Below are positions 4,781 to 32,632 of a stretch of DNA of 34,522 bases, piece after piece. Positions within the stretch are counted from its first letter, which is position 1. Each line of letters opens with the position of its first letter. A program made the translations under genes and the position numbers. This DNA comes from Dactylosporangium sp. (lineage in GTDB: Bacteria > Actinomycetota > Actinomycetes > Mycobacteriales > Micromonosporaceae): contig JAOPWA010000021.1 in NCBI GenBank assembly GCA_025965915.1, positions 1 through 34,522 on the forward strand. Direction: 5' to 3'. Below the pieces are notes generated by a model. That model saw nothing but the letters and a program-made list of their open reading frames with translations, had not been told where the DNA came from and searched no databases.

Positions 4781-5571
4781 GCCGCACCTCCGGAGAAACA
4801 GGTCCGGACCGATCCCAGGCCGGAGATCCGCGCCTCGTACGCTGCGCCGGGGGCCACCGGCACCATCGGGCCGAGCGCCCCGGAGAGCACCACGTCACCG
4901 GCGCGCAGCGGACGTCCCGAGCGGGCGAGGGTCTCGGCCAGCCAGGCCACGGCGTGTGCCGGGTTGCCCAGGCAGGCCGCGCCGGCGCCGACCGAGACCG
5001 GCTCGCCGGCGTGTTCGAGCACCATTCCGCACAGCCGCAGGTCGACCTCGGCGATCCGCCTGGGTGCCGTGCCGAGCACGAAAAGCCCGCTGGAGGCGTT
5101 GTCGGCCACCGTGTCCACGATGGAGATGTCCCAGCCCGCCACCCGCGAGTCGACGATCTCGATCGCCGGCAGCAGGTGGTCGGTCGCGTGGATCACGTCC
5201 GCGACCGTCACCTGTTCGTAGGGCAGGTCGGCGCCGAGCACGAATGCGACCTCCGCTTCCACGCGCGGTTGCAGCAGCCGGCCGAGGTCGACCTCGGTGC
5301 CGTCGGGCACCGCCATGTCGGCGAAGAGCACACCGAAGTCCGGCTGGTAGACGCCGAGGTTCTCCTGCACGACGCGGGAGGTCAGGCCGATCTTCGCGCC
5401 GACGGGCCGGCGACCCTCCGCCGTCCAGCGCCGCACCTGTGCCTGCTGCACGTCGTACGCCGTCTCGACATCGCCTTCGGGCAGCAGTTCGCCGCGCAGC
5501 GGCGGGCAGGGCTTGCCTTCGTCGTACGCGTCGCGCAGCACCTGCGCCGCCCGCTCGATATCCACGGTCAC
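4777..5571 (-). CDS. 2-oxopent-4-enoate hydratase
   Basis: 264 aa from GTG at 5571; paralogue of the downstream decarboxylase ('[30 protein letters not shown]', '[14 protein letters not shown]'); GTGA overlap with the upstream gene. Confidence 0.84.
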
Positions 5572-7079
5572 GATAGATCCACACAGACGTTGGTGAGTTC
5601 GGAGTAGAAGTCCAGTGAATGTACGCCGCCTTCGCGGCCGACGCCCGAGGCCTTGACCCCGCCGAAGGGGGTACGCAGGTCGCGCAGGAACCACGTGTTG
5701 ACCCAGACGATGCCGGCGTCCAGCCGGGCGCCGGCCCGATGCGCCCGGCCGACGTCGCGGGTCCACACCGTCGCGGCGAGCCCGTACTCGCTGTCGTTGG
5801 CGAGCGCGTACGCCTCGTCCTCGTCGTCGAACGGCGCGAGGTGGCACACCGGGCCGAAGATCTCCTCCCGGTTGGTGCGCGCGTCCTGGCCCAGACCGGT
5901 CAGTACGGTCGGCTGCACGTACGCGCCGCCGTCGCGGGCGTCGCCGAAGGCCGGGACGCCCCCGCCGGCGAGCACCGTGGCGCCTTCGGCACGGGCCAGG
6001 TCGTAGTAGCCGAGCACCTTGTCGCGGTGCTCTCTGGAGATCAGCGGCATGTTCGCGGTCGCCTCGTCGGACGGCCAGCCGAAGGCCAGCTCACCGGCGC
6101 GCTTCGCCAGCCGTGCGGCGAACTCGTCGAAGATCGGCCGCTGCACGTAGAGCCGTTCGGTGCACAGGCACACCTGGCCGCCGTTGGTGAAGCTGGACCG
6201 GACCGAGCCCGCCACCGCCGCGTCCAGGTCGGCGTCGGCGAAGACCAGACCCGCGTTCTTGCCACCCAGTTCGAACGACACGGCCTTGACCCCACCTGCC
6301 GCGGCCCGCATGATCGTGGCGCCGGTGGCGGACTCCCCGGTGAAGGTGATCGCGTCGACGCCGGGGTGGCGGGTGAGGAACTCTCCCGCCGAGGCCGGGC
6401 CGAAGCCGTGTACCAGGTTGAACACCCCATCCGGCACGCCCACCGCCGCCATTATCTCGGCGAGCAGCGTCGCCGACGACGGGGTCTCCTCGGACGGCTT
6501 GACGATGACCGCGTTGCCGCAGGCCAGTGCCGGGGCGACCTTCCAGGTCAGCAGCAGCAGCGGCAGGTTCCAGGGCACGATGATCGCGACGACGCCGACC
6601 GGCTTGCGGACGGCGTAGTTGAGCGCCCGCCCGCCACCAGCGGTGGCGGTGGTGAACGACTCGGTCGGCGCGGTCGCGGCGATCTCGGCGAAGGCCCGGA
6701 AATTGGCGGCTCCACGCGGGATGTCCAGCGTCCGGGCCTGCGAGATGGACTTGCCGGTGTCGGCGACCTCGGCGGCCACCAGATCGTCGAAGCGCCGCTC
6801 CAACTCGTCGGCGATCCGGCGCAGCACGCCGGCGCGCTCCTGCTCGCCCATCCGGCCCCACGGCCCGCCCAGCGCCCGGCGTGCGGCATCCACGGCCGCG
6901 TCCACGGTGCCGGCACCCGCCTCGGCCACCTCGAAGATGGTCTCGCCCGTAACCGGGCTGACCTTGGCGAACGTCTTGTCCCCGGCGACGAACTCGCCGC
7001 CGACGAAGTTGCGCAGCAGTCCCGGCGCGCCGGCCGGTCGCCCGGTCATCAGCTCCGGGCTCCACAGTGTCCGGGTCAC
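5568..7079 (-). CDS. 2-aminomuconate/2-hydroxymuconate semialdehyde dehydrogenase
   Basis: 503 aa aldehyde dehydrogenase; 'FELGGKNAGLVFADAD', 'GGQVCLCTERLYV', 'EEIFGPV'; operon context. Confidence 0.9.
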   Translation of the reverse strand: MTRTLWSPELMTGRPAGAPGLLRNFVGGEFVAGDKTFAKVSPVTGETIFEVAEAGAGTVDAAVDAARRALGGPWGRMGEQERAGVLRRIADELERRFDDLVAAEVADTGKSISQARTLDIPRGAANFRAFAEIAATAPTESFTTATAGGGRALNYAVRKPVGVVAIIVPWNLPLLLLTWKVAPALACGNAVIVKPSEETPSSATLLAEIMAAVGVPDGVFNLVHGFGPASAGEFLTRHPGVDAITFTGESATGATIMRAAAGGVKAVSFELGGKNAGLVFADADLDAAVAGSVRSSFTNGGQVCLCTERLYVQRPIFDEFAARLAKRAGELAFGWPSDEATANMPLISREHRDKVLGYYDLARAEGATVLAGGGVPAFGDARDGGAYVQPTVLTGLGQDARTNREEIFGPVCHLAPFDDEDEAYALANDSEYGLAATVWTRDVGRAHRAGARLDAGIVWVNTWFLRDLRTPFGGVKASGVGREGGVHSLDFYSELTNVCVDLS

Positions 7080-29502: not shown

Positions 29503-30921
29503 TCAGTTGGAGGCCGGCTCGCTCAGCGGAAGCCTGACCTGGAAGCGGGTGTCGCCCGGGTTGGAGACCAGGCCGATGGCACCGCCGTGCCGGTTGACCA
29601 CGATCCGGTACGAGATGTCGAGGCCCAATCCTGTCCCCTCACCCACCGGTTTCGTGGTGAAGAACGGTTCGAAGACCCGTTGGCGCAGCTCCGGCGGGAC
29701 ACCCGGACCCGTGTCGCAGACCTCGACGAGGACCTGGTCACCGTCCCGGCTGGTACGCAGCGTCAGCGTGCCCGACCCGTTCATGGCTCGCACCGCATTG
29801 TCGACGAGGTTGGTCCAGACCTGGTTGAGCTCGCCCGGATGGGCCGGGATCTGGGGCAACGTACGGTCGAAGTCCTTGACCACCCGGATACCGTCACCCA
29901 TCTTGTGAGCGAGCATGGCCAGGGTGCTCTTCAACCCGTCGTGCACGTCGATCCACTGGTGGGAGGCCCGGTCGAGCTGGGAGTACTGCTTAGCCGCGGC
30001 GACCAGCGACGAAATCCGGTTGCCGGCGTCCTCGATGTCGGTCAGCAGTTGCTCGGTCTCCAGGGCGTACCCGATCCAGTGCAGCGCCTGGTCGAGCAGG
30101 TCGGGTGCCACACTGCGGGCGATCTCGCCGAGGCAGTCGACGTCGAGGCCGCCCGAGGCCAACAGGGGCGCCAGGTCCCAGCCGGCAGTGACGCCGTGCT
30201 CGTCCATCCAGTCGCCCAACTCGTCTTCGCGGTCGCTGGCCTGCATGGGGGTCAGCTCGGGCACCTTCGCGGCGTGCTCGATGATCGGCTCCGCCAACTG
30301 GGTTAAGGCGCGCAACTGCTCGGACGGGATGCGGCCGTCGGCGAGCATGCCCAGCTTGTGCCGCATGCCCGCGACCCGCTCGCGCAGGGCCGCGGTTGCG
30401 CGGACCGTGGCGGCCGCCGGGTTGTTGAGTTCGTGCATCAGACCGGAGGTGAGCGAGCCGAGCGCGGCGAGGCGCTGGCGCTCGCCGACCAGGGCCTGAT
30501 TGGTGCGCATGCCGAAGAAGAGTCCTTCGAGCAGGTGCATCGCCATCGGGAACCACTCGCGGATCATCGTCCCGAAGTCCTCGGCCGGCAGGACGAAGAA
30601 CGTGCAGTCGCTGATGGCCCGCATGGAGGCGCTATAGGTGCGGACCGCGGCCGGCTCGTTGCGCAGGTAGGCCTGGGTCGCGCCCATGTAGACACCGCGT
30701 TGATCGGTGCGGACGGTCTCCACGTCGTCCTGTTGCACCCGCCGGGACAGCGCCAGCGTGCCGGACAGGAGCACGACGAAGATCTCGGCCGGGTCGCCCT
30801 CGGTGAACACCGTGGCGCCGGCGGGAAAGGTGCGTTCGCTCCCGTGCGCGGCGAGCCAGTCAAGCTGCTCGTCGGTCAAGGCCTCGAACAGGAACAGCGT
30901 TTTCAGCTCGGCCGGCGTCAC
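29503..30921 (-). CDS. Histidine kinase with N-terminal cyclic-nucleotide-binding-like domain
   Basis: 472 aa (GTG start); cNMP-fold N-terminus 'FPAGATVFTEGDPAEIFVVLLSGTLALSRR', H-box 'SGLMHELNNPAAATVRA', N/G boxes 'NQVWTNLVDNAVRAM', 'GEGTGLGLDISYRIV'. Confidence 0.92.
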   Translation of the reverse strand: MTPAELKTLFLFEALTDEQLDWLAAHGSERTFPAGATVFTEGDPAEIFVVLLSGTLALSRRVQQDDVETVRTDQRGVYMGATQAYLRNEPAAVRTYSASMRAISDCTFFVLPAEDFGTMIREWFPMAMHLLEGLFFGMRTNQALVGERQRLAALGSLTSGLMHELNNPAAATVRATAALRERVAGMRHKLGMLADGRIPSEQLRALTQLAEPIIEHAAKVPELTPMQASDREDELGDWMDEHGVTAGWDLAPLLASGGLDVDCLGEIARSVAPDLLDQALHWIGYALETEQLLTDIEDAGNRISSLVAAAKQYSQLDRASHQWIDVHDGLKSTLAMLAHKMGDGIRVVKDFDRTLPQIPAHPGELNQVWTNLVDNAVRAMNGSGTLTLRTSRDGDQVLVEVCDTGPGVPPELRQRVFEPFFTTKPVGEGTGLGLDISYRIVVNRHGGAIGLVSNPGDTRFQVRLPLSEPASN

Positions 30922-30932
30922 TGAACCTCCAG

Positions 30933-30973
30933 CTGTTCGCGACTGCGGGGCTCGCTTCGCTCGCTCCTCGCGT
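30933..30973. repeat. 41-bp insertion, possible small dispersed repeat
   Basis: ctgttcgcgactgcggggctcgcttcgctcgctcctcgcgt, flanked by TCACTGAACCTCCAG (30918-30932) and TCACTGTGCCTCCAG (30974-30988), 13/15 identical. Confidence 0.55.
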
Positions 30974-32632
30974 TCACTGTGCCTCCAGGTACTTGTGTAC
31001 GAGCGTTACCGCCATCGCCCCCTCGCCGACGGCCGACGCCACCCGCTTGACGGAGTTGGCCCGCACGTCGCCGGCGGCGAAGATGCCGGGGACGCTGGAC
31101 TCGAGGTAGAACGGGTCGCGGTCACGATCCCAGCCGGCCGGCCGCTGGCCGCCGACCAGCAGGTCGGGCCCGGTGCAGACGAAGCCCCGGGAGTCGCGGC
31201 GCACGGCGCCGCCGAGCCACTCGGTGCGCGGCTCGGCGCCGATGAACACGAACAGGTGCTCACAGGGCAGGGTGACGGCGGTGCCCTCGTTGCTGTCGCG
31301 GACCGTGACAGCCTCCAGGTGCTCGTCGCCGTGCGCCTCGATCACCTCGCAGCGGGTCCGTACCACGATGTTGTCGATCGCAGCGAGCTGCTGGATCAGG
31401 TAGTAGGACATCGACCGCTCCAGCGAGTCCCCGCGTACCAGAATGGTGACCCTGTGGGCGTACCGGGAGAAGAAGAGCGCCGCCTGGCCGGCGGAGTTGG
31501 CCCCGCCCACGATGTAGACATGGGTGCCCGCGCACAACGGCCCTTCGGTGGCGGCGGAGCCGTAGTAGACGCCTCGCCCGGTCAACTCGGCCGCCCCGGA
31601 GGCGACGAGAGGTCGGTAGGACACCCCGGTCGCGATGATCACTGTGTGCGCGGACAGTTCGTCTCCGTCGCTGAAGCGCACCACCCGGGCCGACCCGCGG
31701 GCCTCCAGACCCACCACATCGCGGGTGGTGAGCACCTCAGCCTCGAACTTGCCGGCCTGCCGGCGCGCCCGCTCGGTGAGCTGCGCGCCGGACACCCCGT
31801 CCGGGAAGCCCAGGTAGTTTTCGATGCGGGAGCTCTGGCCGGCCTGCCCGCCGATGGCCCGGCGCTCGACCAGCACCGTGCGCAAGCCCTCCGAGGCGCC
31901 GTAGACCGCCGCGCCGAGGCCGGCCGGGCCGCCACCGATGATGATCAAGTCATAGAAACCGCGTACCGGCGCGGTGGACAGCCCGACGACGCCGGCGACC
32001 TCGGCGGTGGTTGGTGCGGTGAGCGCCTGCCCGGCAGGGGTCACGACGAGCGGTATCGCCTCCGGGCCCGCCCCCGCTGCCCTCAGCAGCCGGCGCCCCT
32101 CCGGCTCATCGGCGGCGAACCACCGGTAGGGCACCAGGTTGCTGGCCAGAAAATCGCGGATCTTGTACGACGGGGAGCTCCACCGGTGCCCGACGACCTT
32201 GACCTCATCGACCTCCCGGTCACCGGCCGCCTGCCACGCCTCCAACAGGGCATCCACCACCGGGTAGAACTTCTCCTCGGGCGGGTCCCACGGCTTGAGC
32301 AGATAGTGGTCGACGTCCACGACGTTGATGGCCTGGATCGCAGCGTCGGTGTCGGCGTACGCGGTCAGCAGCGCCCGCCGGGCGCGCGGGAACAGGTCCA
32401 TCGCCTGCTCCAGGAAGTCGACGCCGCTCATCTGCGGCATCCGGTAGTCGGCCAGCATGACCGCCACCCGCCCGCCGCGCAGCTTGATCTCGCGGAGCGC
32501 GTCGAGGGCCTCGGCGCCCGAGGACGCGCGGACGACCTGGTAGTCCTGCCCGTACCGACGACGCAGGTCACGCGCGACGGCCCGGGACACCGCCTGATCA
32601 TCATCGACGGTAAGCATCGCAGGGCGGCTCAC
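30974..32632 (-). CDS. Response regulator receiver fused to a thioredoxin-reductase-like FAD/NAD(P) oxidoreductase
   Basis: 552 aa; REC 'MLTVDDDQAVSRAVARDL...VMLADYRMPQMSGVDFL...KPW'; then 'DLIIIGGGPAGLGAAVYGASEGLRTVLVE', 'VYIVGGANSAGQAALFFSRYAHRVTILVRG'. Confidence 0.92.
   Translation of the reverse strand: MSRPAMLTVDDDQAVSRAVARDLRRRYGQDYQVVRASSGAEALDALREIKLRGGRVAVMLADYRMPQMSGVDFLEQAMDLFPRARRALLTAYADTDAAIQAINVVDVDHYLLKPWDPPEEKFYPVVDALLEAWQAAGDREVDEVKVVGHRWSSPSYKIRDFLASNLVPYRWFAADEPEGRRLLRAAGAGPEAIPLVVTPAGQALTAPTTAEVAGVVGLSTAPVRGFYDLIIIGGGPAGLGAAVYGASEGLRTVLVERRAIGGQAGQSSRIENYLGFPDGVSGAQLTERARRQAGKFEAEVLTTRDVVGLEARGSARVVRFSDGDELSAHTVIIATGVSYRPLVASGAAELTGRGVYYGSAATEGPLCAGTHVYIVGGANSAGQAALFFSRYAHRVTILVRGDSLERSMSYYLIQQLAAIDNIVVRTRCEVIEAHGDEHLEAVTVRDSNEGTAVTLPCEHLFVFIGAEPRTEWLGGAVRRDSRGFVCTGPDLLVGGQRPAGWDRDRDPFYLESSVPGIFAAGDVRANSVKRVASAVGEGAMAVTLVHKYLEAQ

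Follow-up and report, generated by a model that had tools for sequence, protein, structure and literature searches.

A small interspersed repeat of Micromonosporaceae that probably relays translational coupling across stop/start overlaps

Introduction

Short repeats can take several forms in bacterial genomes. REP sequences are short, dispersed and imperfect hairpins having a conserved tetranucleotide at the foot, and Rickettsia palindromic elements are coding repeats that lie in frame. The system closest to the one considered here is MIRU, which a passage of a review (PMC12548453, citing Supply et al. 1997 Mol Microbiol 26:991) describes in the same terms of a stealth relay as those used below, and for which the units found at senX3-regX3 measure 77 and 53 bp (PMC4213456).

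Here we analyze an insertion between an oxidoreductase gene and a kinase gene in a Micromonosporaceae genome available as a draft of 685 contigs. By the window we mean the whole stretch of 34 522 nucleotides that was studied.

Results

The initial annotation of this DNA had described two 15-bp copies, identical at 13 of 15 positions, on either side of 41 bp, with one copy providing the stop codon of the oxidoreductase and the other the RBS and GTG start of the kinase. This description was confirmed, as were the two assignments (Table 1). The copies have a period of 56, and when the local sequence was shuffled, about 1 shuffle in 100 gave a flank match this good. The net insertion is 56 bp, consisting of the 41-bp core together with a second copy of CTGGAGGnnCAGTGA. 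Among 27 comparable junctions that of the window had the best match between upstream flank and linker, with none of the 26 other linkers matching this flank as well.

A feature that had been missed was an open mini-ORF overlapping both genes. It reads GTG AAC GCG AGG AGC GAG CGA AGC GAG CCC CGC AGT CGC GAA CAG CTG GAG GTT CAG TGA, with its GTG overlapping the upstream TGA and its own TGA overlapping the kinase GTG, both overlaps being GTGA, and with a GGAGG preceding both starts. The start-to-start distance of 56 nt is 2 mod 3, which is the sole class allowing a double overlap, and both of the 4-nt overlaps are thereby rebuilt.

Table 1. Features discussed in the text, in window coordinates unless a genome and contig are given
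Feature	Position	Strand	Basis or remark
Upstream gene: response-regulator receiver domain fused to thioredoxin-reductase-like oxidoreductase	30974..32632	-	Pfam PF00072, PF07992
Upstream junction copy CTGGAGGCACAGTGA (forward strand TCACTGTGCCTCCAG)	30974..30988	-	RBS-like GGAGG, oxidoreductase stop, now also mini-ORF start
Repeat core GTGAACGCGAGGAGCGAGCGAAGCGAGCCCCGCAGTCGCGAACAG, imperfect hairpin, GAA tip	30933..30977	-	model R1, E=5.9e-15 (model built from 9 sequences, the window copy included)
41 bp inserted between junction copies	30933..30973	-	missing in three sister genomes
Candidate relay mini-ORF, 19 codons + stop, VNARSERSEPRSREQLEVQ	30918..30977	-	translation; 4-nt overlap at both ends
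Downstream junction copy CTGGAGGTTCAGTGA (forward strand TCACTGAACCTCCAG)	30918..30932	-	duplicated RBS-like GGAGG, mini-ORF stop, kinase GTG start
Downstream gene: cyclic-nucleotide-binding domain + histidine-kinase-type ATPase	29503..30921	-	Pfam PF00027, PF02518
Copies of the MSERSER family	L188-L217, first copies ~1501; own genome G000:C410:6554-6572, G000:C418:18058-18076		

The proposal of an ancestral 4-nt overlap split by insertion of a small repeat gained support from orthologous junctions. In all three sister Planosporangium genomes (L035, L036, L037) the same gene pair has a bare 4-nt stop/start overlap, in the form of ATGA, with the empty site reading CTGGAGGCACGATGACC and similar. 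As these sister junctions are bare, the 56 bp were evidently gained in the lineage of the window. More distant relatives mostly have short oxidoreductase-kinase junctions, often with ATGA or GTGA.

The core belongs to a dispersed family, in agreement with the earlier impression that it recurs in related actinobacteria; searching the genome and its relatives gave further copies in both, and many across Micromonosporaceae. A core pattern search matched 32 of 101 genomes, that of the window included, often in tandem, and profile matches were seen in at least 95 of 201 Micromonosporaceae genomes, i.e. about half of that sample. The genome of the window (G000) has at least four copies by profile at E <= 1e-3 and in addition one decayed copy, with a near-identical core being found on contig C336. 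Exact-pattern copies numbered 2 to 38 per genome in 18 Micromonospora genomes, with none in the reversed-pattern control. In a class-wide sample of 297 genomes, model R1 matched at least four, these being the genome of the window, two Micromonospora and, weakly, one genome of another family; among the matches listed there was no strong one outside Micromonosporaceae and none outside the families f1 and f49. One plasmid record, from Micromonospora, carried the repeat and none of the phage records searched did so. A text search of the open-access literature gave no description of the core sequence or of the mini-peptide. As a separate observation, a genome from another family of the class (G490; L171, L175, L179, L186) has tandem repeats with a GAGTGAGCGAAGCGAGCCCCGC-like hairpin, some of them seemingly inside a gene, which possibly represent a related or convergent family.

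With regard to structure, the family core has constant arms and variable tips (TT, GNA, seven-base loops or extended arms), its ends are imperfectly inverted (GTGAGCGCGA/TCGCGAACG) and a conserved GTGA lies at the foot of the imperfect hairpin. The family consensus folds at -17.6 kcal/mol, better than most shuffles of the core (z -2.4), and the fold of the whole region at the insertion site studied here is unremarkable (z -0.3). No compensatory pair was found in the RNAalifold consensus, and in a structure drawn by hand, with nested GYGAGC/GCGARC arms, 7 of 36 sequences had one pair changed on both sides, from U-A to C-G; taken together, these two results give moderate support for the hairpin. 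No matching family was found in Rfam.

We determined the reading frame of the downstream gene for copies having RTGA at their start, using GC3 bias and not annotation, with the call beginning 45 nt past the core because the mini-ORF had to be kept out of it. Merging of orthologous junctions left 43 independent junctions, which are not a random sample since the fetched copies were biased to the best-scoring matches. At 38 of these 43 the gene after the last repeat was in the relay frame (frame 2), compared with an expected one third (p ~1e-13), with frame 0 (fusion) seen at three junctions and frame 1 at two. An RTGA layout like that of the window copy was found at 36 of the 43, and of 42 arrays that start with GTGA downstream of a sense gene, 33 had the upstream stop exactly inside that tetranucleotide. 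Cores of 42, 43, 44, 45, 47 and 52 nt occurred with distances of 53, 56, 59, 62, 65 and 71, all of them 2 mod 3, and the linker thus compensates for the varying core. The mini-peptides, such as VSARSERSEPRSRE, VSARSELASPAVAN and VSARSEPVLRAPQS, differ from each other, completely so in the second half, while the frame persists, indicating that it is the frame and not the peptide that is conserved. Of 42 tandem arrays in eight Micromonospora genomes, 41 had internal spacings of 2 or 0 mod 3. A lax chain test, accepting any overlap chain or read-through, was passed by 54 of 62 real arrays vs 45 of 56 having one extra base and 55% of shuffled inserts, and because the controls also passed often we dropped it in favor of the strict terminal-frame test given above.

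Copies also come and go between close relatives. One junction (L123) had the repeat solely in G000 among the Planosporangium compared, a site in frame inside a gene (L121, G003:C45:290208-290252) had it solely in G003, and a further junction (L122) held a copy in G003 and a decayed one in G000, the site being empty in G001 and G002. The decayed copy of G000 (L142, G000:C518, about 5144-6435) is 9 bp shorter and has its mini-ORF joined to both genes, so that with this loss of 9 bp the relay frame survives. The number of tandem copies at the same junction also differed between species, being 4, 4 and 1 at one junction (L101, L103, L117) and 4 and 2 at another (L109, L119). A few copies are not relays, since they lie within genes or as N-terminal extensions (L121, L024, L023); those in frame inside or near gene starts (L121, and L024 at G002:C15:128360-128404) add VSARSERSEPRSREQ to the protein. 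The target duplication that had been suggested at the outset, of about 15 bp, was clear at the junction of the window and plausible at L122 and L123, but it was weak over 27 junctions (on average 4.7 matches of 11 against 4.0, p ~0.003) and so across the family. The insertion at L121 makes this locus about 45 bp longer than L157 and came without a long duplication, and a fixed duplication mechanism is consequently not established.

A sequence-distinct family, starting with RTGAGCGAGCGAAGCGAGC (MSERSER...ERSEVAA followed by stop), was found in 13 of 101 genomes searched, that of the window included. Its mini-ORFs are mostly of 78 or 84 nt and the downstream gene was in the relay frame at 24 of 27 analyzed places. 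One copy, in L189, apparently lies between trpB and trpA, going by a visual inspection of the ends of the proteins on either side. We also noted that there is an orthologous oxidoreductase-kinase junction in another genus (L060, G015:C8, reverse strand, at about 1340-1480 of the reoriented locus) that has two chained mini-ORFs. These, VTGRGNPQRFVGVPTKEEQP and MSERQRANHEHCAPCLIGAPTKEEHQ, each ending in a stop, are linked by GTGA/ATGA overlaps; one is MSER-like and the last begins 77 nt ahead of the kinase start. This junction is apparently an independent relay at the same place. We see an even chance that at least two sequence-distinct repeat families of Micromonosporaceae have converged with MIRU, colonizing overlaps and rebuilding coupling by a relay mini-ORF, with continuity of the frame, not the peptide, being selected.

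Discussion

We consider it probable, at about 0.78, that the insertion represents a copy of an interspersed repeat of Micromonosporaceae, small and non-autonomous, that colonizes RTGA overlaps and relays translational coupling by means of a mini-ORF. The target would be the 4-nt stop/start overlap (RTGA) of co-directional genes, to which each copy would bring a GTGA, a hairpin-forming core of about 40 nt and an RBS-bearing linker leading to a second RTGA, with an added length of 2 mod 3 (most often 56 nt). On finishing the first gene, a ribosome could then resume at the mini-ORF and terminate exactly on the start of the second gene, so that coupling, as predicted here from sequence, would be relayed and not broken. 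Recurrence of the repeat, empty sites, location at junctions, frame constraint and differences in tandem copy number are what the sequence comparisons demonstrate; mobility of the repeat, duplication of the target and a near-neutral effect on the host are steps that we infer.

It had initially been proposed that the insertion uncouples the two genes. They do now lie 52 nt apart, but the mini-ORF restores the 4-nt overlap at each of its ends, and across the repeat family the relay frame, kept at 38 of the 43 independent junctions, is either selected or built in; we thus rejected uncoupling on the frame of the mini-ORF and regard it as very improbable. The 13/15 identity of the flanks could have been taken to reflect a local tandem duplication with chance filler and no repeat element at all, had the core not recurred with the same boundaries at many unrelated places, a finding that already refutes this and leaves it practically no probability.

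The two remaining explanations keep the repeat and account for it in other ways. One is that the hairpin and minigene form a domesticated regulatory leader, kept because it tunes the ratio of two proteins in the manner of an attenuator; the core fold (z -2.4), the covarying pair seen in 7 of 36 sequences and the copies held at several orthologous junctions across Micromonospora all point in this direction. Copies are however scattered over unrelated genes, the orthologous junction is empty in all three sister species, the whole-region fold at the site studied is ordinary and there is no Rfam family, and we find such a role unlikely. The other is that of a REP-like element mobilized by a RAYT or IS200-IS605 Y1 transposase cutting beside the GTGA at the hairpin foot, with the relay frame as a by-product of the landing site. 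Although that conserved GTGA and the presence of Y1 transposases in G000 and G003 would agree with this, 10 of the 16 repeat-bearing genomes searched gave no match to PF01797 (Y1_Tnp), no copy of the repeat lay in the six Y1 loci retrieved together with their 1.5-kb flanks, and REP biology leaves the frame constraint unexplained. Y1 transposase hence does not track the repeat, RAYT mobilization is not supported and this explanation seems quite unlikely to us.

If coupling is relayed as proposed, the repeat illustrates a way of settling in operons without breaking them, through a mini-ORF of its own that ends at the start of the following gene. MIRU is known chiefly as a mycobacterial typing marker, and a second large set, spread over many genomes and still polymorphic between species, would make the relay idea directly testable. 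The repeats are potential variable tandem-repeat markers for Micromonospora, and they are a likely source of wrongly annotated start sites, giving N-termini like VSARSERSEP... and MSERSER...

Compared with REP/BIME elements, the repeat has a similar imperfect hairpin with a conserved foot tetranucleotide (with the hairpin moderately supported), but it lacks a link to Y1 transposase, sits at stop/start overlaps and keeps the reading frame. It resembles Rickettsia palindromic elements in those few copies that lie in frame inside genes or N-terminally (L121, L024, L023) and differs from them in being found mainly at operon junctions, with its own start and stop. As for MITEs, the ends seen here are imperfect, the 15-bp or so duplication is clear at the junction of the window alone and the transposase search was that for PF01797. 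The likeness to MIRU is more extensive: the senX3-regX3 units are 2 mod 3, as is the 56-bp unit, and here too we find a short repeat scattered over many unrelated loci, a small ORF overlapping the flanking stop and start by 4 nt (in the window copy and at 36 of 43 junctions) and head-to-tail tandem arrays differing in copy number between species. The repeat described here is one of Micromonosporaceae, with a core sequence and hairpin of its own and with units of 56, 59 or 62 nt, MIRU having been compared by description. It is well supported, by this analogy, that the repeat would work like MIRU as a stealth element at stop/start overlaps, the likeness being one of layout.
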